Below, piece by piece: positions 37,452 to 53,930 of a stretch of DNA of 57,955 nt. The notes under the pieces were generated by a model. The model was not told the origin of the DNA and did no database searches. It was given only the letters and a program-made list of their open reading frames with translations. Both the position numbers and the translations under genes were made by a program. Position 1 is the first letter of the stretch; every line of letters begins with the position of its first letter. This DNA is from Pelagibacteraceae bacterium AG-422-B15 (GTDB lineage Bacteria; Pseudomonadota; Alphaproteobacteria; Pelagibacterales; AG-422-B15): assembly GCA_003213715.1 (NCBI GenBank), contig QCMN01000001.1:1-57955 (forward strand), given 5' to 3'.

Positions 37452-37596
37452 TTTCTATTTTCTAACTGTTACATAATTTCTTAAAAAAATTAGTGATGCG
37501 AATCTTTACACTTGCCAACATGAAACCTTCAAAAAAAAATTAAACATAATTTTTATATTACTAAATAGTGTCTGTAATTTTAGTGATAAAAATAAA

Positions 37597-37612
37597 TGAC
37601 AATTATTTGTCA
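37597..37612. promoter_or_regulatory. Inverted repeat upstream of ureD, candidate operator
   Basis: TGACAA-ttat-TTGTCA. Confidence 0.4.
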
Positions 37613-37641
37613 ACTTGAAATTAAAACACTATGATAATTTC

Positions 37642-38439
37642 ATGAAAGTAAATCTTCAAAAATCTATAGGCACAATTGATGTAGGATTTATAAATAATGA
37701 TGTTGAAAAATTATATCAGCAAGGATGCCTTAAAGCTTTACTACCTCAATCCTACTCTAGTTTGTCTCAACTAGTTTTAGTTAATACATCTGGAGGCGTA
37801 ACGAGTGGGGACAAGTTTAATACCAATATAGACTTACACAATACACATATGCTCGCTACAAATCAGGCTGCTGAAAAATTATATAGTGGATATGGAGACG
37901 CGGCCAAACTTAAATATACAATTAACATTGATAACAGCACTCTTTTTTGGATACCAAATGAAACAATCCTCTTTGATAACTGTAACCTGAGACGTCAAAT
38001 TGATGTCAATCTTTTAAATAATTCAAATTTATTTTTTTGTGAAACAGTTGTTTATGGTAGATCAGCAATGAATGAAACAATTGAAAAAGGTTACTACTCT
38101 GATCGTTGGAAAATATTTAATGAAAATAAAATTGCTCATCTTGAGATCAATGGCTTTGAGGATAATGTAAAAAGAATGCGGGTAAATAAATTTATGCTTA
38201 ATGATAATATTGCAGTTAATACAATAATAATACTCGGTTCAGAAATGAATAAATTTTATACTGTATTAAAGGATAATATACATGATGAAAAAAGTGTAAC
38301 TACTGGTATTTCAGAGTGGGATGGTAAGATAGTAATAAGGAGCATTTCATCTAATAACTATTATTTAAAAAAATTTACAAAAAATATCGTATCAATCGTG
38401 ATGAATGACAAAATTCCTTACATGTGGGGTGCTGCATGA
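37642..38439 (+). CDS. ureD: Urease accessory protein UreD
   Basis: [18 protein letters not shown], first gene of the urease operon; ATG at 37642 preferred over TTG at 37615. Confidence 0.9.
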
Positions 38440-38738
38440 AGCTTTCTCCAAGAGAGATTGATAAAATGATGGTCAGCATGGCTGCAATAGTTGCTCGAAA
38501 GAGGTTAGACCGTGGTGTTAAGTTAAATTACCCTGAAGCCGTATCAATTATTTCTGATTATGTTGTTGAAGGTGCAAGGGACGGCAAATCTGTAGCTGAA
38601 CTAATGGAAAGTGCAGCACATGTTCTAAAAAAAGATGACTGTATGGACGGAGTTGCTGAAATGATTGCCGAAGTGCAGACAGAAGCAACTTTTCCGGATG
38701 GAACAAAGTTAGTCACGGTGCATAAACCCATAAGGTAA
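38424..38738 (+). CDS. ureA: Urease gamma subunit
   Basis: [36 protein letters not shown]. Confidence 0.97.
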
Positions 38739-38745
38739 GAATTAT

Positions 38746-39054
38746 ATGATTCCAGGAGAAATAATTACAAGTGATAGTGACATAATTTTAAATAAAGATT
38801 TAGTGAGTTTGACAATGAAAGTCTCCAATACTGGTGACCGGCCAATTCAAGTCGGTAGCCATTATCACTTTGGCGAAGCAAATGAAAGTCTTGAATTCGA
38901 TAGAAAGAAAGCCTTAGGCATGAGACTTAACATTCCATCTGGAACCGCAGTTAGATTTGAACCAGGGCAAACAAGAGATATTGAACTCATTGAAATACAG
39001 GGACTAAAAAAGTTATTTGGATTTAATAAAAAAGTCATGGGAAAAATTAAATGA
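38746..39054 (+). CDS. ureB: Urease beta subunit
   Basis: [30 protein letters not shown]. Confidence 0.97.
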
Positions 39055-40757
39055 AAAAAATTCCAAGACAATCTTATGCAGCTATGTACGGCCCCACAAC
39101 AGGCGATAAAGTAAGGTTAGCTGATACTGAGCTTTTCATTGAGGTTGAAAAAGACCTCACAGTCTATGGTGAGGAAGTCAAGTTTGGTGGTGGAAAAGTT
39201 ATTCGCGATGGAATGGGACAGTCTCAGGTTTCAAGAAGTGATGGAGCAGTAGACACAGTTATTACTAATGCTCTAATACTAGATGTCACAGGGATATTTA
39301 AAGCAGATATTGGACTAAAGAACGGAAATATTGATCATATTGGAAAAGCTGGTAACCCTGATACACAACCTGGTGTGGATATTATAATTGGTCCAGGTAC
39401 TGAGGTTATTGCAGGTGAAGGTAAAATTGTAACGGCGGGCGGCTTTGATAGTCATATACATTTCATATGTCCTCAGCAAATTGATGACGCCTTACATTCT
39501 GGCATTACGACGATGTTGGGTGGAGGTACTGGACCAGCACATGGAACATTAGCAACTACTTGCACACCTGGGCCATGGCACATAGGCAGGATGCTTCAAT
39601 CATCTGATGCTTTCTCGATGAATTTAGCTTATGCAGGCAAAGGAAATTCTTCGATGCCTTCTGGTTTAGAGGAACAAGTTCTTGGTGGAGCAGCTGCTCT
39701 CAAACTTCACGAGGACTGGGGCTCTACTCCTGGTGCAATTGATAATTGTTTAAATGTTGCTGATAAATTCGACGTTCAGGTCATGATACATACTGATACA
39801 CTCAATGAAAGTGGCTTTGTGGAAAATACAATCAATGCAATTAATAAAAGAACCATTCATACATTTCATACTGAAGGTGCTGGTGGTGGACACGCGCCTG
39901 ATATAATAAAAATTTGTGGTGAACCGTATGTTTTGCCATCCTCAACTAATCCAACACGACCATTTACTGTTAACACTGTTGAAGAGCACTTAGATATGCT
40001 GATGGTTTGCCATCACCTTGATAAATCAATACCTGAAGACGTCGCTTTTGCGGAAAGTCGAATACGCAGAGAGACAATGGCTGCTGAGGACATACTGCAC
40101 GATATGGGTGCTTTCTCAATCATCGCATCTGATAGTCAAGCTATGGGACGCGTTGGTGAGGTTATTATTAGAACATGGCAAACGGCTCATAAAATGAAAG
40201 TGCAACGAGGAAGACTATCTGAAGAGCAAGGTGATAATGATAATTTAAGAGTTAAACGTTACCTTGCAAAATATACAATAAACCCATCAATTGCTCATGG
40301 AATCTCTTCTTATGTTGGCAGTCTCGAAAAAAATAAAAGAGCCGATATCGTTATCTGGGACCCAGCTTTTTTTGGTGTTAAGCCTGAGATTATAATAATG
40401 GGTGGAAGTATTGCCTGCGCTCAAATGGGCGATCCAAACGCATCGATTCCAACTCCTCAACCTGTGTATACACGTCCAATGTTTGGAAGTTATGGAAGAT
40501 CGCTTGAAAATTCATCGGTAACTTTTGTCAGTAAGAGTTCACTGGAAGCAGATAGCCTAAATCATCTGAATATACAAAAAACTTTGTTACCAGTAAGCAA
40601 TACAAGGTCAATTTCAAAAAAAGATATGGTATTAAACGATGTTTGCCCAACTATAGATGTAAATCCTGAAACATATGAGGTTAGAGCAAATGGAGAAATT
40701 ATAACATGTGAACCGGCAGAAGAATTACCAATGGCACAAAAATATTTTATGTACTGA
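39051..40757 (+). CDS. ureC: Urease alpha subunit
   Basis: ALKLHEDWG carbamyl-Lys site, [22 protein letters not shown] flap. Confidence 0.98.
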
Positions 40758-40759
40758 CT

Positions 40760-41203
40760 ATGGAAATTTGTAATTCAATTTTAAGTTACTATGATTTCTC
40801 TGAAGAGGTGGATACAATTTCCCTATCTTATGAGGAGAGATTCATGCGACGCAAAAAATTAGTTTCTGACAAAGGCCATGAATTTCTAGTTGATCTTGAT
40901 GAAATGAAATCAGTCTTGAGTAATCAAGCTTTCAAACTTCAGAGTGGAAAATTAATTACTATAAAATCAAAAAAAGAAAATTTAATTGAGATCAAGTCAG
41001 AAAATTTAAATAAGTTAATATGGCATATCGGAAATAGACATATCCCCTGTCAGATTGAAGCTACAAGAATCTTAATACAAAATGACCATATCATTGAGGA
41101 TATGGTGAGAAGACTTGGGGGGAAGACAAAATCTGTGGTTGAACAATTTAATCCTGAAGGAGGGGCTTATGGTATGGGAAGAACGCATGGTCACCAACAT
41201 TAA
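40760..41203 (+). CDS. ureE: Urease accessory protein UreE
   Basis: IWHIGNRHIPCQ, His-containing tail RTHGHQH. Confidence 0.93.
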   Translation: MEICNSILSYYDFSEEVDTISLSYEERFMRRKKLVSDKGHEFLVDLDEMKSVLSNQAFKLQSGKLITIKSKKENLIEIKSENLNKLIWHIGNRHIPCQIEATRILIQNDHIIEDMVRRLGGKTKSVVEQFNPEGGAYGMGRTHGHQH

Positions 41204-41846
41204 AGATAAAAACCCATTAGATTTAAAATCTCATCAAATTTTGCATCTTTGGTTTTCATCTTCATTTCCTATTGGTTCATACGCTTATTCGCATGGTCTC
41301 GAGGCTATAATTGATGACAAGCTTATCAAAAATAAAAATGACGTATTAGAATTTATTAAGAGTATTCTCTTTGAGGGAACCTGCAGAAATGAGTATATCT
41401 TTATAAAGGCTACCTATGATGGTATTGATATAAATGATTTAGTGCTTGCAAGCTGCGCATCTAAGGAACGTCAACTTGAAACACTCAAAATGGGCGATGC
41501 CTTCAGAAAAATTATGTCTGAGAGTTGGAACTATACAATAAATAATGAGACTGCTTTTCCAGTCTGTATTGCTCAAGCAGGGATTAAATTTCATATTGCT
41601 TTTGATGATTTAGTTGATTTTTATATTCAATCATTCATCTCAAACTTAATTAATATGTGCGTTAAACATATACCTTTAAGTCAAAAAGATGGTCAAGATT
41701 GTATGTTTTCATTTCTTGGTATGATGAAAAGTTTTCATAATACGATGAAAGAATTAAGCTTAGACGATTTACGCAGTTCAATGTTTTGTGCGGATATTTA
41801 TAGTATGAAACACGAAAATCTTAAATCTAGAATTTACGTCACGTGA
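41187..41846 (+). CDS. ureF: Urease accessory protein UreF
   Basis: [23 protein letters not shown] at 41187 more plausible than 41115. Confidence 0.9.
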
Positions 41847-42463
41847 ATAATTTTCGAGGACCTTTAAAAATTGGTATTGGTGGCCCCGTCGGTGCAGGTA
41901 AAACAAGTCTTACTGAGGCTTTGTGCAAAAATTTATCTAAAAATATTTCAATGGCAGTTATATCGAATGATATTTATACAATAGAAGATGCCGAGTATTT
42001 AATGAGAGCTCAAGTTTTACCAATTGAGAGAATTAAAGGTGTTGAAACTGGTGGATGCCCTCATACCGCAATTCGAGAGGATGCTTCGATTAACCTCTTA
42101 GCTGTAGAAGAAATGAAACAAAAATTTCCTGATTTACAATTGCTATTGATTGAGTCAGGTGGAGATAATTTGGCTGCAACGTTTAGTCCAGAGTTAGTAG
42201 ATTTATCAATCTATGTGATTGATGTTGGAATGGGAGGTGATATCCCTCGCAAAGGTGGGCCAGCAATAAGAAAATCTGATTTACTAATCATCAATAAAAC
42301 TGATTTAGCAAATCACGTAAATGTTGATTTGGATCAAATGAAATTAGATGTTGAAACTGCCCGATCAGGCATGCCTTATATTTTTTGTGAAATGAAGAAT
42401 AATAAGGGTATAGAAAATATTGCTGAGTTTCTCAAAACTGAGGGTGGCCTTGAAATAAACTAA
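41843..42463 (+). CDS. ureG: Urease accessory GTPase UreG
   Basis: [48 protein letters not shown]. Confidence 0.97.
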
Positions 42464-42474
42464 AATCCACTTTC
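42459..42474. repeat. 16-bp direct repeat, left copy
   Basis: ACTAAAATCCACTTTC, identical to 42766-42781. Confidence 0.95.
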
Positions 42475-42525
42475 CTGAATGAGTATTGAGGTAGTAGTAT
42501 TAAATATGTTTTGTAAGGTGTTCAT
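42460..42525 (-). pseudogene. Decayed copy of the 3' end of the M50/HlyD gene
   Basis: Minus strand reads [21 protein letters not shown]; the intact gene ends QNLFNLVSSTLIRESGF* (11 of last 17 residues identical, same stop). Confidence 0.6.
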
Positions 42526-42610
42526 TCATGTATGAATATATATCAATGGCTTAAATCATATCCAATCATGAAAAAAATGTGTTATTATGCATAAAAGCTA
42601 GAAATTACAG

Positions 42611-42642
42611 TCTGTGTAACTGCTGCATTATTGCTACACAGA
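42611..42642. repeat. Hairpin upstream of the tRNA-like element
   Basis: TCTGTGTA-16 nt-TACACAGA. Confidence 0.6.
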
Positions 42643-42692
42643 AAATAATTCAACATTGTATAAACGATATTACTGTTTGATATCAATGCTTT

Positions 42693-42766
42693 GCCCCTAT
42701 CGCTTAATAGTAAAGCAGATCATTGGTAATGATCAGCCGCTGGAGCGTAACCAGCTAGGGGCACCA
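42693..42766 (+). tRNA. Non-canonical tRNA-Thr(GGT)-like element
   Basis: Acceptor GCCCCTA/TAGGGGC, D stem GCTT/AAGC, anticodon arm GATCA-TTGGTAA-TGATC, T stem GCTGG/CCAGC, A73-CCA; D loop AATAGTA lacks GG, T loop AGCGTAA lacks TTC. Confidence 0.6.
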
Positions 42767-42781
42767 CTAAAATCCACTTTC
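42766..42781. repeat. 16-bp direct repeat, right copy
   Basis: ACTAAAATCCACTTTC, covers the M50 gene's stop and last codons. Confidence 0.95.
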
Positions 42782-44875
42782 TCTAATTAATGTTGATGAA
42801 ACCAAATTAAATAGATTTTGAAAAATATTATAGTTTTCAGTTTGAATTTTTACTTTACCTGCTGTTTGCCATTGAACAGTCTCAACTTCTGTACTTGTAG
42901 AAAAATTAAGCTGATATAATGCTTCTTCTGGTCGATAAATAATTTTTCCATCTCCCTTCACTTCACGAGATGCAATTGATCCACCATAAGTAGATACTAA
43001 TGATAAGTAAGGAAGTTCTTCTGTCGATGTATTATTTTGTGAAACCAAGACAACTTCTGCTTCATCAAATTCATTATTTTTTGGCACAAAATAACCACTA
43101 GTATTATCTTCAAGTTTATACAAATCATTTTCGCTAATGAATGCAACGACTTTTGTGTCATTGAATTGAACAATAGAAAATAATTTTTCTTTTATATTCA
43201 CCCACTGTCCATTATTTAAATACTTAAGATCTTTTATCACCCCACCCATTGGTGCATAAATGGATAGATTTTCATTTTCCTCTTTGAGACTTTTAAGAAT
43301 TTCAAATTCTACTTTTAATTGGTTTTCTAATACCATGAGGTTTTTCATATCAGCCTCTGATCCAATTCGACGGTCTAGTTTTTGTTGTATCATCTTCACG
43401 CGCTCAATTGCTTTATCAACTTTATTTGATAGAGATGGGCTCATCATTGTTATTAATAAATCACCTTTTTCGACTTGTTGATCTGAGATAACAAAAATCT
43501 CTTTTATCTCTGAATCTTCTGTTGGATAGATATCGACTACTTCACCTCGATCAATCACCGCTGGAAGACTGAGTGAACTTCGCCATGGTACCAACATTGC
43601 TGCCAAAAATACTGAGAAAATAATAATTGATCTTAAAGAAGTCCAATTAAAACGCATGTACCTTCTAAGTCCCCACCACTGTTTAATTTCTCTCCAAATT
43701 GGTAGTAAAATGAACCAAACAATCTCAATTATGAACAGAATGATACCAAGAATTTTGAATGTTAAATAATAAACCAATAAGGCAATTCCAATAAATATGA
43801 AGAAGCGATATATCCATGTCATCCAAGCGTAAATAATGAAAGTCCACCGTCTTTGACTCATGAGTTGCTCCGGTGGTTGGAATTTAAATCCAAAGATCCA
43901 TTCTCTAATCTGCCATCGACCTAAAGCAAAAGAGCGCGGTTGAAGATTTTCCGCTTTAAGAAAATCCGAGAGCACATAGTAACCGTCAAATCTCATAAAC
44001 GGGCTAATATTAATAAGAAGTGATGATATCCAGCTTGAAGTCGCAATAAAAAATGAAGCACTTTTGATAACGCCTTCAGGACTTACAGCCCAAACAAATG
44101 TAGCGAGAAGGGCAAGATGCAATTCTGTCAGCATGCCAGCAAAATTAATCAGTAAGCGTTTTCGATGATCAGTTAATTTATAAGCATCGGTTGTATCTGT
44201 GTACAAGAAGGGAAAAAAAACCAGCATTGCAAGACCAATTGAAGAAACTTTGCATTTATAATAAGTGGCAACATAAGCATGCCCTAGTTCGTGCAAGGCT
44301 TTTACAAAAACAATCGTTATCCCAAATAAAATCAATCCATTAACATTAAAGAAATAAGAAAATGTTGTTAAAAATGTTTCATAGTTTTGGATTGTTAAAA
44401 AAATACCAATGATCCCCAGAATATAAATTATAAGTCTGCTAGTTTGCGATCCAAGAAACAATGCAAAAGGTAAACTGTTTTCAAGACCATTCCCAGGTTT
44501 GAATAATGGGATTTTAAAGAACAAATAATTATGAATAATTTTTAACAACCAATGCTTGTTAAGTTTCTCTTTTTGAACAACTAAAGATTTAACTTCATCG
44601 CCAGTTTTTTTAATAGTTAAATTGTTGAGATTTAGAAAACTGATAAATTCTTCAATTTCTTCTTGTGTAATAGACAGATTACTTTTTTTAATTTTTTCTA
44701 TAAATTCAGTTGTGTCAATTCCACTTGACCAATTTTTAAGTAGATCAAATGCTTTTTTATTTATCGAAAAGTATTTATTTCTTAAGGAGTCATATAGAAG
44801 CCATGACGCTGATCCGTCCTCTTTCTTGGGTCCCTCACTGAGTTTTAAATCTTGTCGAATAGACGGTACAATCAT
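42767..44875 (-). CDS. PqqD-like/peptidase M50-type membrane protein with HlyD-like C-terminus
   Basis: KALHELGHAYVATYYKCKVSSIGLAMLVFFPFLYTDTTDAYKL (HExxH), LLINISPFMRFDGYYVLSDFL, HlyD-like GEVVDIYPTEDSEIKEIFVISDQQVEKGDLLI. Confidence 0.85.
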   Translation of the reverse strand: MIVPSIRQDLKLSEGPKKEDGSASWLLYDSLRNKYFSINKKAFDLLKNWSSGIDTTEFIEKIKKSNLSITQEEIEEFISFLNLNNLTIKKTGDEVKSLVVQKEKLNKHWLLKIIHNYLFFKIPLFKPGNGLENSLPFALFLGSQTSRLIIYILGIIGIFLTIQNYETFLTTFSYFFNVNGLILFGITIVFVKALHELGHAYVATYYKCKVSSIGLAMLVFFPFLYTDTTDAYKLTDHRKRLLINFAGMLTELHLALLATFVWAVSPEGVIKSASFFIATSSWISSLLINISPFMRFDGYYVLSDFLKAENLQPRSFALGRWQIREWIFGFKFQPPEQLMSQRRWTFIIYAWMTWIYRFFIFIGIALLVYYLTFKILGIILFIIEIVWFILLPIWREIKQWWGLRRYMRFNWTSLRSIIIFSVFLAAMLVPWRSSLSLPAVIDRGEVVDIYPTEDSEIKEIFVISDQQVEKGDLLITMMSPSLSNKVDKAIERVKMIQQKLDRRIGSEADMKNLMVLENQLKVEFEILKSLKEENENLSIYAPMGGVIKDLKYLNNGQWVNIKEKLFSIVQFNDTKVVAFISENDLYKLEDNTSGYFVPKNNEFDEAEVVLVSQNNTSTEELPYLSLVSTYGGSIASREVKGDGKIIYRPEEALYQLNFSTSTEVETVQWQTAGKVKIQTENYNIFQNLFNLVSSTLIRESGF

Positions 44876-46940: not shown

Positions 46941-49900
46941 TTAACTTACTAGAGATACAATTTTTTCGCCATAGCTATCTGCTGACTTCGCATGTAGCTC
47001 TAATTGTTCATCAAGAGGAATGAAAGAAATTTCATCATTTGTTTCTGAATTTTCACTTTCCGACTCAGTCTCTGTTATTTCATTTAGATCAATCTCAACT
47101 TCAATAACTCTTTCTTTTCCATCTTCATCCTCAGCAATAATTTTTAGTTCAAGAACTTTTAGGCTTTCTGTTAAGAATGCAGGAGCTGCAGAGCCAGTTC
47201 GACCTTTTGAAGGGTCAGCTGAAATTTTTCCAGTCTCCGGATTAATTGTAATCCAATCAGGCAGTGTACCGCCACCTTTAAGTTCTGCTTTATACATTTT
47301 GACATTTGTTTGATTGTCATCAATCACATCAAATGTAAATTGACCTGCATCCATTTGAAGACCGCTTAACTTCATTGTACCATCAAAGTCTGTCTGAGCA
47401 TTTAAATTATTATTTTCAGTATTATTAGATGAACTATTGTTACCTCTAATTAAGTTTACATTTGCATCGTTATCAACAACAACTCTTGCCTGATCAATTG
47501 CTCCTCTTGTAAAGTCTTGGTCACCTTTTATTTTAGCTTTATCTAAAACAATATTAATATCCCTTGTATTACCATCTTTATCAAGAGCAACTAATTGGAC
47601 CTCCACTGCTTCGACTCCTTCAGGCATATCTGCAGTTGTTTCGCCTGTTTCAGGATTTACTTTAATCCATTCTGGTAAGGTTTCACCATTTGAAAGCTGA
47701 CCTGAATATAGCTCAACATTTTTTTGATTATCATCATTTAATTTCACGCCAACTTTTAAATCGGACTCTGCATCCCCTGACACTTCATTTGCAACAGCAT
47801 CCATCAATCTTAAACCGCCATTAAATTTTAGAGGTTTTGAGAGAGATGCTGTATCGGCAATTGATACTGTATCAAGTGTAAAGCCGTCATCACCATCAAT
47901 TGAAGATCCTTCATTAATTGTTTCATTAATAGCTGCCAAGTAATCTTTCTTTGGTTTAATTATTACTGGGTCAAAGTTTTGTGGAGCTTCTTCAACTATT
48001 TCTTTTTCACCTATATACCCTGGTGCGGGTCTTACTGTAATTGTGAAAGTAAAATCAGAATAAAGTCCTGCTCCGTCAATAGCTCTGATTGTGATTGTAT
48101 ATGTTCCTGGCTCACTGATACTTCCAGTTAATTTATTTTGTTTTAATCTAAGGCCATCTGGAAGACTAGTTTCTGTCTCTGTTTCTTCATCTATAATTTT
48201 GTATTCAGCGATATCAAATGCACCTCTATCAGGATCATCAAAAATTTGCTTATGCTTAATGTTGATTGTTTGGCCAGTGAAAACAATAGGATCATCGATA
48301 GGGTACAAGACTTCAGGAGGGTCGTTTTTACCTGTAACAGTAATTGCAATTTCAGCTGCAACTGAAGTATCTGTATCATTGGCTGTATATGTAAAGTATT
48401 CTGTAGCTGTTTCACCAGGATTTAATGCTTTCGCATTGTCGGCGCTATAGCTATAGCTACCATCAGCGTTCATCGTTAAACTTCCATATCTACCTGGCAA
48501 GGCTGTACCAATTGTACCTGATGTCCCTGTTTTATTTTCACGGCCAGTTCTAATTGTGTCGACAGTTAAAGTATCTCCATCAGGGTCTGTATCATTAATT
48601 AATACTCCCTGAGTTGAATCTTTTTCTGTTTGTGCGCCTGCACCGATTTGTAAAGTATCATCAACAGGCTCTGGTGGGTCACTGATACCTTCAACTGTGA
48701 ATGCAATTACTCCCGTGTCTGTTCTTTCGCCATCAGTTACTGTGTAGTTAAAATAATCAATGGCACTATCGCCTCTTTTAAGAGCATTAGCAGCATCCTG
48801 ATCCGCAGCATAAGTATAACTTCCATCAGCGTTTAGGGTTAAAGTACCATAAGTCCCCTTCAGGGTAGTGCCAACTTTAGCAGGGCCTCCTTTACCTCCA
48901 CCTTCAACTTGACCTGTTCGCACCTCAGAAATGGTTAGAGTCTCTCCGTCGGCATCTGTATCATCTGCATTAATAGCAAGCGTTGAATCTTTATCACGGG
49001 TGATTGAGGCGTCGCGTTTAACGGTATCTGTATCATCTACGGCAACCGGATCGTTATCATTGATACCTGTAACGGTGAATGAAAGTTCAGCTGTTGAAGT
49101 TTCATTCCCATCGCTCACTGTGTATGTAAATGTATCAGTCCCGGTTTGGCCTGTGACCAGTTGATCTGATTTATTTTGATCAGCAACATAGGTGTATGAT
49201 CCATCAGCATTAACAGTAAGTGTTCCATATTCACCAGTTAGTGCCACACCAACTTCTCCATCAGTGGTTCCTGATGATGAAGATTTTGGACCAGTTCTAA
49301 TATCTGTAATTGTAAAGTTTCCACTTGTATCATCACCATCAACATCGGTGTCGTCATGGTCTAACTCTTGATCGTCACTTACTGTTCGACTGATAGTTGC
49401 ATCCTCGTTAACACTATCTGTATCATCAACGGCAACGATTGCATCGTTTGCTCCATTGATTGTAAATGTAAGCGTTGCGGTTGATGAGTTTTTGTCATCA
49501 TCATCCTTTACAGTATAAGTAAATACTTCGGTAACAGTATCACCTGCATCCAATGCTTCTGCAGCAGCTGTGTTTGGTGTGTATGTGTAACTTCCATTAG
49601 CTGCAATAGTCAAAGTACCATACGTTCCTAAAACTCCTTCACCAGCAGTGCCTGTATTGCCCGTACCACCAGATTCAATATTTGTAACAGCGAGACTTTC
49701 TGTATCTCCACCAGTATCGTTAGTTAATACTCCACCTGCCTCATTGACTGTCAATGTCTGACTTTCAGTGGCAGTAGCTGTGTCCGCTGAACCAACTGGA
49801 CCTACACCTGTTACAGTAATGACTAAATTTGCTGTATCAGTTGTTCCACCATTTTCATCACTTACGGTATAAGTGAAAGTATCGGTTGCAGTTGCACCAT

Positions 49901-52900
49901 GAGCTAACCCATCAGCACCACTTGTATTTGCGGTGTATACATAACTACCATCAGAATTGAGTGTGAGTGTACCGTATGTTCCCGTTATTGCTTGACCTAC
50001 TGTTCCACCGTTGATACCTGAAACTGATAAAGTTGCATTTGAGTCAGCATCTGTATCATTTGATAACACACCACTTCCAGCACTGATTGATATTTGTGCA
50101 TCCTCATTGACGGCACCTGCATCGTTAACACCTACAGGGTCATCATCTATACCTGTCACTGTTATTGTGATCGTAGCTTGATCCTGTAAGTTTCCAGTTC
50201 CGTCATCCTGAAGTGTATATGTGAATGTATCTGTAGCCTGAACCCCAGTACCTAGTGCATCAGCTGCTGCTTGGTTGGCCCTATATACATAGCTACCATC
50301 AGCAGCTATTGTTAATTCTCCATATGTACCTGTAACAGCTGATCCTACAGATCCTCCAGATATAGCCACTACAGAAATATCATCTCCATCTGGATCAGTA
50401 TCATTTGATTCAGCGCCGCTGGCTGCATTTACTGTAAGCGTTGCATCTTCATTAACAGATCCAGTATCATTATTGGCAACAGGGTTATTATTACCTCCTG
50501 CATCAATTCCCGTCACGGTTATTGCAAGTTGTCCTGTATCTGTATCACCACTGTTATGATCTCTGACAGTGTATGTAAAGTAATCAACTGCAGTTGCACC
50601 ATCTTCTAAATTCATTGCACCACTTTGATTGGCAGCGTAGGAATATGATCCGTCGGCATTGATTGTTACTGTTCCGTAAGTGGTAGTAAACGCTTGTCCA
50701 ACTGTTTTTGTCGTACCACTACCTGACTCCTGTCCTGTTCGTATCGCTGTAATGGTAAAGCTACCAGGAACATCATCGGCGTCATCATCTGTATCATCAT
50801 GGTCAAGTTCCTGTGCATCGCTCGTACTTCTTGAGATTGATGAACCCGCATTTACCGCATCTGTGTCATCAACGGCAGTAATATCGTCATTAATACCAGT
50901 CACCGTAATAGTTAACGTTGCGGAACTGGAATTTTTATCAGCATCGTCTTTGACGGTGTAGGTGAATACATCAGTCACTTGATCACCTGGATCAAGGGCG
51001 TCAGCTGCTGATTGGTTCGCAACATATTCATAGCTCCCATCAGCTGCCATAGTTAAAACACCGTATGTTCCAGTAACAGCCTGTGCAGCGTTACCACTGT
51101 TACCAGTAACGCCGTGTGATACGCCAGTTATAGCTAAACTCTCAACATCAAAGCTTGCATTGTCATCGTCATTACTGATTACACCAGATGCTTCATTAAC
51201 TGTTAACGTAGCATCTTCATTGACGGCACCAGTATCAGCAACGGCTTGTGGACCAACTCCAGTTACTGTAATTGTTAAAGTTGCTGTATCAGTTGTTCCA
51301 CCACCATCACTAACAGTATAAGTAAATACATCGGTTGCAGTGGCATCGGCTGCAAGACCATCTTCACTTCTACCATTTGCAACATACTCATAGCTACCAT
51401 TGGCATTTAAAGTCAGAACACCATACGTTCCATTTAATGCTTGACCAACTGTGCCGCCCGAAATTGCAGAAACTGTAAGACTCGCGCTGTCATCTGCATC
51501 AGTATCATTTGATAATACCCCGCTTCCCGAACTAACAGTTAAGGTTTTATCCTCATTGATAGCGCCCGTATCATTCACGCCCACTGGATCATCATCAAGA
51601 CCTGTTATCGTAATTGTAAGAGTTGCCGTGTCTGAGTTAACGTCATTATCATCTTTAACGGTGTAGGTAAAAATATCAGTAATAGTATCAGTTGCATCCA
51701 GTGCTTCTGCTGCTGCTGTATTTGCAACATAAGTATAACTGCCGTCAGCTGCGACCGTAAGAGTACCATATGTTCCAAGAACGCCTTGAGCTGCGTTGCC
51801 ACTATTTCCTGTCGCATTTGAACTGACGTTGGTAACTGCAAGACTTTCCGTATCACCGCCTGTATCATTTGCAATCACACCCGCTCCAGCATTTGCTGTT
51901 AAAGTTGCATTTTCATTAACCGCACCAGTATCATTGCTTGCGCTTGGACCAACACCTGTAACAGTAATTGCTAGTTCAGCAGTATCAGTATCATTTGGAC
52001 TGCTTGAGTGATCCCTTACTGTATAAGTAAAGTAATCAATTGCTGTAACTCCTGCCTCCAACGCGTCTGCTCCGCTTCTTGTTGCGGCATAACTATAACT
52101 ACCATCTGCAGCAAGAGTTAAGACTCCATAAGTACCATTTAGAGCCTGTCCTATTGTTCCCGCTGTTGTTCCACTGGTTGCAGACTCTCTTCCTGTTCTG
52201 ATTGCAGTGATGGTAAAGCTTCCAGATGCATCGTCTTCATCAGGGTCGGTGTCATCATGATCTAATTCTTGCGAGTCCGAAGTACTTCGATTAATTGTTG
52301 CATCTTCATTCACCGCATCTGTATCGTTTACAGCTGTTATTGGATCATTAACTCCTGTGATAGTTATCGTGAGCGTTGCGGTATCTGTATCGGTTCCATC
52401 GGATACTGTGTATGTAAATGTATCCGTCTCCGTATCACCCGGATCAAGAGGGTCTGCAGCGTCTCTATTTGCGGTATAAGTGTAGCTGCCATTTGCATTC
52501 ATGGTTAGCTGTCCGTATGTACCATTTAGAGCTGATCCAAGAGAGCCTCCTGATATTGCACTTACAGTTAGTGAATCACCGTCAGCATCTGTATCATTTG
52601 ATAAAACACCACTACCTGAACTTACTGAAACGCTCGCATCCTCATTGACTGCTCCAGTATCATTATTACCAACAGGTTCGTTATTATCTTCTGGAGCTCT
52701 TGTTACCACACGAATGAAGTCACCTTTTTCTCCATTATCGGCTGACAATGTTATTGTTTTATTAGAGTTTGAAATAGACCAACCATCACTGCCTGATGTC
52801 AAACTTCCAGGTGCGCCTCCAGAATACTCAAAATCCCTTTTACCGACTTTCTGAGCACTACTTGAAGGATAAGCAGAACTTCCCTTATCCGTATAACCTG

Positions 52901-53930
52901 ACATAAAAATAGTGTTATCAGGTGTCGTGAACACACCTAAAATTTCATAGGTAAAGGTGACTATACCGCGGTCACTCGATCCCCGTCGATTGATGTAATC
53001 ATTCAGATAGACCATGTAAACGTGAACTGGACCGTCTGTATCTGGATCCCAACTATTTACAGCCACACCAACATCAAAGGTCAGTGTACTACCAGTAGTC
53101 ACATCAGCTTTTTCCTGTGTGATGATCCATCGATCACTGCTATCCTGTTGTCCGTTCTTATTGCCGGAGAAATTTCCACCACCTGCTTTTAAATTGGTCG
53201 CACCATGTATTTCAACTGCATTTTGAACAGCTGTAACATCTCTGTCCAGAGAATGGTTATAATTGACGACACTCACATTTCGAGTTTCTACAACACCCAC
53301 ATGCTTTTCTAAATCCCAATCTCCACCTTGACCAGTAATATCGTCAGATGCTGCAATATCCGCTTGAGTTATATCAGCGAGTTGCTTAATGAAGACCTCT
53401 CCATTTAAATCAGCCGCAACATTACAACCATAAAACAATATATCACCTTGCTCGGTTAAACTTAAACCAATCGTTTTTAACGAATCTCTGTAAGTATCAA
53501 GAGTATCACTATTTAAAACAGCTGTTCCAAATGCTATTTGACCGACACTACCGTGACCAATGATATGCAACGCATCAATATCAGATTCGTTGGATAAAAT
53601 ATTTTCAATTTCTGTAAACCCGTCTTGTTCACTTTGTATGATGTGTACTTCAGTGTTGTTATCAAAACTTTCAATTAAAACTTCAATATCATCAACTGCA
53701 CTGTCAATGAATACAAATTGTTTGGTTCTTGCATTCTGATTTGTACTTTCACGATTTACAAATGGAAGTTTTGTATCTTGGTCGGTTTTAAAATTATTTT
53801 CTTTTATTTTTTTATCTAAATCAGTCTTATTCAAATTTGCTAAATCGTCGATGGTATCAATTGCAGTTGCGACTGCAGCCCCATCGAGCATCATGCGCGG
53901 TTCAAGTGCCTGAATAAGTTTTTTAGACAT
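46941..53930 (-). CDS. Giant LEPR/DUF4347 protein with VCBS/cadherin-like tandem repeats (2329 aa)
   Basis: MSKKLIQALEPRMMLDGAAVATA; DUF4347-like region (FIDSAVDDIEVLIESF...HIIGHGSVGQIAFG...DILFYGCNVAADLNG); 12 repeats of ~100-130 aa; CADG-like C-terminus. Confidence 0.9.
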   Translation of the reverse strand: MSKKLIQALEPRMMLDGAAVATAIDTIDDLANLNKTDLDKKIKENNFKTDQDTKLPFVNRESTNQNARTKQFVFIDSAVDDIEVLIESFDNNTEVHIIQSEQDGFTEIENILSNESDIDALHIIGHGSVGQIAFGTAVLNSDTLDTYRDSLKTIGLSLTEQGDILFYGCNVAADLNGEVFIKQLADITQADIAASDDITGQGGDWDLEKHVGVVETRNVSVVNYNHSLDRDVTAVQNAVEIHGATNLKAGGGNFSGNKNGQQDSSDRWIITQEKADVTTGSTLTFDVGVAVNSWDPDTDGPVHVYMVYLNDYINRRGSSDRGIVTFTYEILGVFTTPDNTIFMSGYTDKGSSAYPSSSAQKVGKRDFEYSGGAPGSLTSGSDGWSISNSNKTITLSADNGEKGDFIRVVTRAPEDNNEPVGNNDTGAVNEDASVSVSSGSGVLSNDTDADGDSLTVSAISGGSLGSALNGTYGQLTMNANGSYTYTANRDAADPLDPGDTETDTFTYTVSDGTDTDTATLTITITGVNDPITAVNDTDAVNEDATINRSTSDSQELDHDDTDPDEDDASGSFTITAIRTGRESATSGTTAGTIGQALNGTYGVLTLAADGSYSYAATRSGADALEAGVTAIDYFTYTVRDHSSSPNDTDTAELAITVTGVGPSASNDTGAVNENATLTANAGAGVIANDTGGDTESLAVTNVSSNATGNSGNAAQGVLGTYGTLTVAADGSYTYVANTAAAEALDATDTITDIFTYTVKDDNDVNSDTATLTITITGLDDDPVGVNDTGAINEDKTLTVSSGSGVLSNDTDADDSASLTVSAISGGTVGQALNGTYGVLTLNANGSYEYVANGRSEDGLAADATATDVFTYTVSDGGGTTDTATLTITVTGVGPQAVADTGAVNEDATLTVNEASGVISNDDDNASFDVESLAITGVSHGVTGNSGNAAQAVTGTYGVLTMAADGSYEYVANQSAADALDPGDQVTDVFTYTVKDDADKNSSSATLTITVTGINDDITAVDDTDAVNAGSSISRSTSDAQELDHDDTDDDADDVPGSFTITAIRTGQESGSGTTKTVGQAFTTTYGTVTINADGSYSYAANQSGAMNLEDGATAVDYFTYTVRDHNSGDTDTGQLAITVTGIDAGGNNNPVANNDTGSVNEDATLTVNAASGAESNDTDPDGDDISVVAISGGSVGSAVTGTYGELTIAADGSYVYRANQAAADALGTGVQATDTFTYTLQDDGTGNLQDQATITITVTGIDDDPVGVNDAGAVNEDAQISISAGSGVLSNDTDADSNATLSVSGINGGTVGQAITGTYGTLTLNSDGSYVYTANTSGADGLAHGATATDTFTYTVSDENGGTTDTANLVITVTGVGPVGSADTATATESQTLTVNEAGGVLTNDTGGDTESLAVTNIESGGTGNTGTAGEGVLGTYGTLTIAANGSYTYTPNTAAAEALDAGDTVTEVFTYTVKDDDDKNSSTATLTFTINGANDAIVAVDDTDSVNEDATISRTVSDDQELDHDDTDVDGDDTSGNFTITDIRTGPKSSSSGTTDGEVGVALTGEYGTLTVNADGSYTYVADQNKSDQLVTGQTGTDTFTYTVSDGNETSTAELSFTVTGINDNDPVAVDDTDTVKRDASITRDKDSTLAINADDTDADGETLTISEVRTGQVEGGGKGGPAKVGTTLKGTYGTLTLNADGSYTYAADQDAANALKRGDSAIDYFNYTVTDGERTDTGVIAFTVEGISDPPEPVDDTLQIGAGAQTEKDSTQGVLINDTDPDGDTLTVDTIRTGRENKTGTSGTIGTALPGRYGSLTMNADGSYSYSADNAKALNPGETATEYFTYTANDTDTSVAAEIAITVTGKNDPPEVLYPIDDPIVFTGQTINIKHKQIFDDPDRGAFDIAEYKIIDEETETETSLPDGLRLKQNKLTGSISEPGTYTITIRAIDGAGLYSDFTFTITVRPAPGYIGEKEIVEEAPQNFDPVIIKPKKDYLAAINETINEGSSIDGDDGFTLDTVSIADTASLSKPLKFNGGLRLMDAVANEVSGDAESDLKVGVKLNDDNQKNVELYSGQLSNGETLPEWIKVNPETGETTADMPEGVEAVEVQLVALDKDGNTRDINIVLDKAKIKGDQDFTRGAIDQARVVVDNDANVNLIRGNNSSSNNTENNNLNAQTDFDGTMKLSGLQMDAGQFTFDVIDDNQTNVKMYKAELKGGGTLPDWITINPETGKISADPSKGRTGSAAPAFLTESLKVLELKIIAEDEDGKERVIEVEIDLNEITETESESENSETNDEISFIPLDEQLELHAKSADSYGEKIVSLVS
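48320..52690 (-). repeat. Array of 12 VCBS-type repeats inside the giant gene
   Basis: Recurring DDTxAVNEDATxxV...NGTYGxLTxxADGSYxYxAN...DxFTYTVxD...LTITVTG. Confidence 0.9.

Follow-up and report, generated by a model that had tools for sequence, protein, structure and literature searches.

In the tRNA elbow the bases G18, U55 (as pseudouridine) and the U54-A58 pair are treated as near-universal. Altered D- and T-loop identities are known from the non-proteinogenic tRNA-Gly of staphylococci, which coexist with canonical proteinogenic siblings. Pseudouridine 55 has been called universally conserved in a review (PMC4810234). Eukaryotic tRNA-Ala carries A54/A58 and R15/A48, unusual pairs that were reported as unseen in bacteria or archaea (PMC7566577), and the initiator tRNA carries A54-A58 (PMC7912444). 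tRNA-Pyl and the type II mitochondrial tRNAs function although they lack the usual G18 G19 and T-psi-C (PMC7609411). Phage tRNAs that evade tRNA-targeting defences have also been described (PMC10264068, PMC11555353); the change named in the title of the first of these papers is in the anticodon loop, and a search of its text turned up neither the D and T loops nor the elbow. No description of an A18-G55 elbow was found in the open literature, a scope outside which older work on 54-58 and 18-55 lies.

The window analysed here is a stretch of 57,955 nucleotides from Pelagibacteraceae bacterium AG-422-B15, and contains a real tRNA gene of 74 nt with a perfect tRNA-Thr(GGU) cloverleaf (Table 1). 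The arms are joined by TC between the acceptor and D stems and by a single A between the D and anticodon stems. The original prediction for this locus had given the coordinates, strand, stem lengths, anticodon loop TTGGTAA, A73 and CCA, all of which match the sequence, and the covariance-model check that it proposed gave a match to the Rfam tRNA family RF00005 of 53.6 bits against a gathering threshold of 29. Folding returned the cloverleaf at -28.4 kcal/mol (z = -3.7). ARAGORN made no call at this position, and a promoter scan around the gene revealed nothing above chance. The anticodon GGU is accompanied by G1-C72 and C2-G71, threonyl identity determinants of the E. coli set, and both pairs are invariant across seven bacterial forms of the gene.

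Table 1. Positions of the tRNA gene, its parts and associated features. Coordinates without a locus prefix are those of the window.
Feature	Position	Strand	Basis or context
tRNA-Thr(GGU) gene, alternative elbow, CCA encoded	42693-42766	+	Rfam RF00005, cloverleaf fold, conservation
Acceptor stem, 5' strand GCCCCTA	42693-42699	+	sequence, pair counts
Acceptor stem, 3' strand TAGGGGC	42756-42762	+	sequence, pair counts
D arm GCTT-AATAGTA-AAGC	42702-42716	+	sequence; A18 linkage to T loop
D-arm bases A15; A18 (for G18); G19 (kept)	42707; 42709; 42710	+	sequence
Anticodon arm GATCA-TTGGTAA-TGATC	42718-42734	+	sequence; compensatory changes in relatives
Anticodon GGT	42725-42727	+	sequence
Variable region AGCC (C48 at 42738)	42735-42738	+	sequence
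T arm GCTGG-AGCGTAA-CCAGC	42739-42755	+	sequence; linkage to A18
T-loop bases A54; G55; C56 (kept); G57; U58	42744; 42745; 42746; 42747; 42748	+	sequence
Discriminator A73; CCA	42763; 42764-42766	+	sequence
Urease gene island, ureD to ureG	37500-42692	+	between ABC-permease gene and tRNA
Urease operon island	37452-42692		inserted between ABC-permease gene and tRNA
5' fragment of window-type tRNA	L070:4034 (G010 C5)		
5' fragment of window-type tRNA	L071 (G010 C6:5815)		
5' fragment of window-type tRNA	L072 (G011 C3:75929)		
5' fragment of window-type tRNA	L128:3273	-	
5' fragment of window-type tRNA	L133:4165		
G025 chromosomal A18-G55 tRNA-His(GTG)	L529:2566-2639		
G025 chromosomal A18-G55 tRNA-Val(GAC)	L516:1498-1572		
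G025 chromosomal A18-G55 tRNA-Phe(GAA)	L508:1501-1575		

The D loop AATAGTA reads A14 A15 U16 A18 G19 U20 A21 in standard numbering, so that G18 alone is lost. The prediction that the loop lacks both G18 and G19 therefore stood for the first base and fell for the second, since G19 and its partner C56 are present. The T loop AGCGTAA reads A54 G55 C56 G57 U58 A59 A60, and the predicted loss of U54, U55 and A58 was borne out, the three bases being A54, G55 and U58. Overall G18-U55 is exchanged for A18-G55 and U54-A58 for A54-U58, G19-C56 is unchanged, and A15-C48 replaces the Levitt pair. Elbow loss of the staphylococcal tRNA-Gly type had been proposed; what was found instead is that the partners are exchanged in a linked way, to A18-G55 together with A54-U58, and judged by these bases the elbow is replaced by another matching set, not eroded. 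In the folded molecule the D loop would meet the T loop via alternative tertiary contacts, with A18 predicted to face G55 in place of G18-pseudouridine55 and A54-U58 to take over from U54-A58 in closing the T-loop turn, while G19-C56 would be kept.

The full gene was present in 16 genomes of the genus, window included. Fourteen relatives differed from the window tRNA at one position, and one further relative at five, four of which make two compensated anticodon-stem pairs. A search of GTDB genomes with the three loops fixed and all stems free gave 51 matches, and 50 of these were perfect or near-perfect cloverleafs, representing six distinct sequences, and the record titles name Pelagibacteraceae, HIMB59 or other alphaproteobacteria. 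Conservation of the gene extends from the genus to the family of the window (SAR11-like Pelagibacterales) and to HIMB59-type genomes, and from these matches it is far beyond chance. When the seven distinct bacterial forms (window included) were compared, 99.3% of the stem cells were paired and 10 of the 21 pairs had changed on both sides. None of 500 shuffles scored as high, and sliding the partner columns by 1-3 positions destroyed the signal. Compensatory changes in relatives had been named beforehand as a check, and the covarying stems and the conservation of the gene uphold the view that intact stems point to retained function and not to random decay. Origin as a pseudogene or by chance was ruled out by the same two results.

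In most relatives the ABC-permease gene is followed directly by the tRNA and then by a membrane-fusion gene, and the urease island is absent from this place. In the relative G011 the full tRNA and a 20-nt 5' fragment of it enclose a urease operon, and in G010, L128 and L133 38-nt 5' fragments lie at the far ends of islands of 2.7-9.5 kb, in which no integrase was recognised by eye. These small islands have a 5' tRNA fragment (20-38 nt) at one end and the full tRNA at the other, an arrangement which we take to resemble the tRNA-targeted, tycheposon-like integrative elements known from streamlined marine bacteria. Judged from this architecture, the tRNA gene is a hotspot for islands. The same fragments, and the several genomic positions occupied by the gene, could be cited for its being a decaying or foreign tRNA fragment from an integrated element, but 50 genomes have an intact full-length copy, with compensated stem changes, CCA and identity bases. 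This reading, which the covariation has largely refuted already, is scarcely credible.

Several other features were observed in these regions. Two of the islands encode proteins resembling T5orf172/GIY-YIG and repeat proteins. A 58-nt direct repeat (42459-42516 and 42766-42823, 72% identity, first 16 nt identical, 307 bp apart) brackets the interval from ureG to the tRNA. An Rfam 5_ureB_sRNA (RF02514) match of 105 bits lies antisense to ureC (39204-39489, minus strand), and may reflect coding-sequence homology rather than an sRNA. A 2329-residue protein with many Asp-rich repeat domains (VCBS/cadherin-like) is encoded beside membrane-fusion proteins (46941-53930, minus strand).

The window's own genome is 85% complete, while G020, G039 and G040 of the same family are 99%, 100% and 98% complete. 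The full tRNA list of G020 contained 31 matches, among which the typed tRNAs include Thr(UGU) but no ordinary tRNA-Thr(GGU). Searches with three patterns likewise gave no ordinary tRNA-Thr(GGU) in the sampled genomes of the window's family, including G039 and G040. Two matches to an ordinary-Thr(GGU) pattern were rejected, as they do not resemble the anticodon-to-T-arm segments of a tRNA; matches in G040 and G042 were likewise unlike such segments. In the sister family an ordinary tRNA-Thr(GGU) was found by pattern search in several genera and was called by ARAGORN in G024 and G025. The codons ACC and ACU account for 435 of the 932 threonine codons in the long open reading frames of the window. 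Because no ordinary tRNA-Thr(GGU) was found in the near-complete genomes of the family, the window tRNA most likely decodes ACC and ACU and is most likely the sole tRNA-Thr(GGU) of its cell. A tRNA-Thr(UGU) could in principle read ACU and ACC, so its status as sole decoder is something we infer, unlike that of the tRNA-His described below.

Lists of host tRNAs from four genomes of Pelagibacterales gave 97 in total, of which six were non-canonical, all six having A18 with G55, and the rest were ordinary. G025, a Pelagibacter-type genome in a single contig of 1.2 Mb, carries three A18-G55 tRNAs (Table 1), each the only one of its kind in the genome; tRNA-His and tRNA-Val(GAC) have the full alternative elbow, and tRNA-Phe combines A18-G55 with U54-A58. 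Both histidine codons need the single tRNA-His of G025, and the alternative elbow therefore works on the ribosome. From these sole tRNAs it follows that the A18-G55 elbow must work in translation. The tRNA-His locus (tRNA-Phe, tRNA-His, then a common gene) occupies the same place in G025, G030 and G036, with closely similar flanks, and its elbow is ordinary in the sister species G030 and G036 and alternative in G025, which suggests in-place switching of this tRNA. The alternative tRNA-His pattern was matched by 14 sampled genomes of the same genus as G025. In two of these 14 the Pelagibacter tRNA-His (L480, L484) has an intermediate T loop, GGCAGAA (G54, G58), and retains A18 and G55.

A short-loop pattern open to any anticodon gave tRNA-like matches in 7 of 385 alphaproteobacterial genomes, and in a phylum sample of 399 genomes only the window's own genome gave a tRNA-like match; two other matches from the phylum scan were judged by eye to be chance. 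These patterns miss five-base variable regions, such as that of the G025 tRNA-Val, as well as other T loops, and the bacterial count is therefore a lower bound.

The same elbow was found in phage tRNAs. A search with the anticodon loop TTGGTAA and the T loop fixed recovered tRNA-Thr(GGU) genes on phage contigs that have the same D loop, which had not been requested. Opening the anticodon gave approximately 170 distinct phage-contig tRNAs with the T loop AGCGTAA and more than 20 anticodons, including two CTA suppressors, and by A18, G19 and this T loop the window tRNA belongs to the same class. Most of these contigs have one alternative-elbow tRNA, often in a large set of ordinary tRNAs (across the loci, 204 against 992), and three sampled contigs contained phage gene families including DNA ligase and homing endonuclease. 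A scan of viral sequences with a pattern one base longer gave members with a five-base variable region; as the search patterns were confined to a single T loop and to short variable regions, the distribution found is a minimum. The discriminator base was G in 12/12 tRNA-Asp and 7/7 tRNA-Asn, U in 5/5 tRNA-Cys, C in 9/10 tRNA-His and A in 31/32 tRNA-Phe. These bases match the amino acid, indicating that the phage tRNAs are kept for charging. The A15/C48 combination was present in 86 of 170 alternative-elbow tRNAs, compared to 49 of 1045 ordinary tRNAs in the same loci.

Among the named phages of INPHARED no good match to the window tRNA was found, and the tRNA-Met of Salmonella phage Arash was rejected as a member of the class, having G18-G19 with the T loop ATCGTAC. 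The tRNA-Phe of phage T5 has an ordinary elbow. In the T5-like Escherichia phage EscoHU1 the tRNA-Phe (L539:8884-8958, minus strand) has the 54-58 flip alone, with the T loop ATCGTTA and G18 kept, and the two tRNA-Phe offer a tractable series for laboratory work. Erythrobacter phage vB_EliS-L02, a phage that has been isolated, contains an unannotated gene resembling tRNA-Val(GAC) (L537:201-275), in which A18 accompanies the T loop GGCAGCA. Programs that search for tRNAs by the standard motifs overlook phage tRNAs and also essential tRNA genes of SAR11.

Linkage between the two loops was measured in phage-contig tRNAs picked by the T loop AGCGTAA regardless of the D loop, position 18 being assigned by rule from the loop sequences. 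All 61 had A18-G19, while 1010 of 1045 tRNAs with ordinary T loops in the same loci had G18-G19 by a strict rule that misreads loops such as AATAGGTA to the disadvantage of the linkage (Fisher p ~6e-78). A structure-only scan gave 832 strict phage cloverleafs, in which positions 18 and 55 were G,U in 602, A,G in 159, A,U in 24 and G,G in 4. Positions 54-58 of the A18/G55 tRNAs were A-U (92), U-A (32), G-G (27) or C-A (6), the last three groups lying outside every search pattern used, and approximately 65 A18/G55 tRNAs had other T loops (UGCRA, GGCRG, CGCRA). A further 19 tRNAs combined G18/U55 with A-U at 54-58. From these combinations the elbow can be divided into two separable modules, 18-55 and 54-58, and on this division the window tRNA is switched in both. 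The modules would switch in a linked fashion, with the remaining tRNA obeying the ordinary rules.

Taken together, these comparative data make it very probable that the window tRNA is a functional elongator that reads ACC and ACU through alternative elbow contacts, and most likely the sole tRNA-Thr(GGU) of its cell. It would be charged, delivered by EF-Tu and used on the ribosome. The class occurs broadly among phage tRNAs of diverse specificity, and in Pelagibacterales and HIMB59-type bacteria it has been fixed in chromosomal tRNAs present as single copies. The original prediction allowed for a non-ribosomal or regulatory role, as in a tRNA diverted from translation that avoids EF-Tu like the staphylococcal cell-wall tRNA-Gly. 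The missing G18, U54, U55 and A58 superficially resemble such an elbow loss, but the elbow positions were swapped in a linked fashion and not lost, the same elbow occurs in more than 20 phage anticodon types with correct discriminators and retained aminoacylation identity bases, and A18-G55 tRNAs are the only tRNA-His, tRNA-Phe and tRNA-Val(GAC) of a related SAR11 genome. A normal tRNA-Thr(GGT) alongside it, which the prediction had asked about, was looked for in the near-complete G020, G039 and G040 and none was found. A non-ribosomal role is unsupported by these results, is unnecessary to explain them and is most improbable.

With the window tRNA read as a working elongator, its origin may be considered separately. 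A captured phage-type tRNA could have displaced the host tRNA-Thr(GGU), its retention perhaps tied to the islands integrating there, a history compatible with the elongator reading. Stem identity between the window tRNA and phage Thr(GGU) tRNAs that carry these loops reaches 66%, the class is common in phages and scarce in the sampled bacteria, and the gene is an island hotspot. However, the ordinary tRNA-Thr of the sister family is nearly as similar (57%; the HIMB59 form gave 64%), and the Pelagibacter tRNA-His, which kept the alphaproteobacterial A73 and matching flanks, apparently switched in place. As stem identities over 74 nt do not by themselves fix the direction of transfer, capture is put forward tentatively and seems somewhat doubtful. 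A broader proposal, for which the balance falls a little short of even, is that A18-G55, often with A54-U58 and A15-C48, forms a second self-consistent elbow code without the usual substrate bases of TrmH (G18), TrmA (U54) and TruB (U55). Such a code may have arisen or spread in phages, perhaps because it frees tRNAs from host enzymes or defences that recognise the elbow, or hides tRNAs from them. Streamlined marine bacteria may have fixed it in essential tRNAs on several occasions.

Because numerous phage tRNAs and essential single-copy tRNAs of SAR11 share this elbow, a textbook invariant of tRNA structure has an alternative that works in nature. This natural, repeated and linked replacement supports the 18-55 and 54-58 contacts with direct evidence from evolution, and shows G19-C56 as the part of the elbow most resistant to change. 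The need of elbow modifications, RNase P, EF-Tu and ribosome contacts for the elbow bases becomes testable, and the SAR11 bacteria whose essential tRNA genes were missed are among the most abundant cells of the ocean.

When compared with the known systems, the window tRNA shares with ordinary bacterial elongator tRNAs (RF00005) the cloverleaf, stem lengths, U8, A14, G19-C56, G53-C61, U33, CCA and a threonyl anticodon, and differs in having A-G rather than G-pseudouridine at 18-55, A-U rather than U-A at 54-58 and A-C in place of the Levitt pair at 15-48. The staphylococcal tRNA-Gly also have altered D- and T-loop identities, whereas the window tRNA apparently has no canonical sibling, none having been met beside window-type tRNAs in G020, G039 and G040. 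Like the defence-evading phage tRNAs, the class covers many specificities and is distinct from host tRNAs. Eukaryotic tRNA-Ala and initiator tRNA are likewise working tRNAs with a natural replacement of 54-58, accompanied in tRNA-Ala by a changed 15-48; the changes reported there keep A58 and include none at 18-55, while in the window tRNA 54-58 is inverted and 18-55 replaced. In tRNA-Pyl and the type II mitochondrial tRNAs the interaction is absent or rebuilt with altered arms, whereas the window tRNA has a standard cloverleaf in which the contact partners alone are changed.
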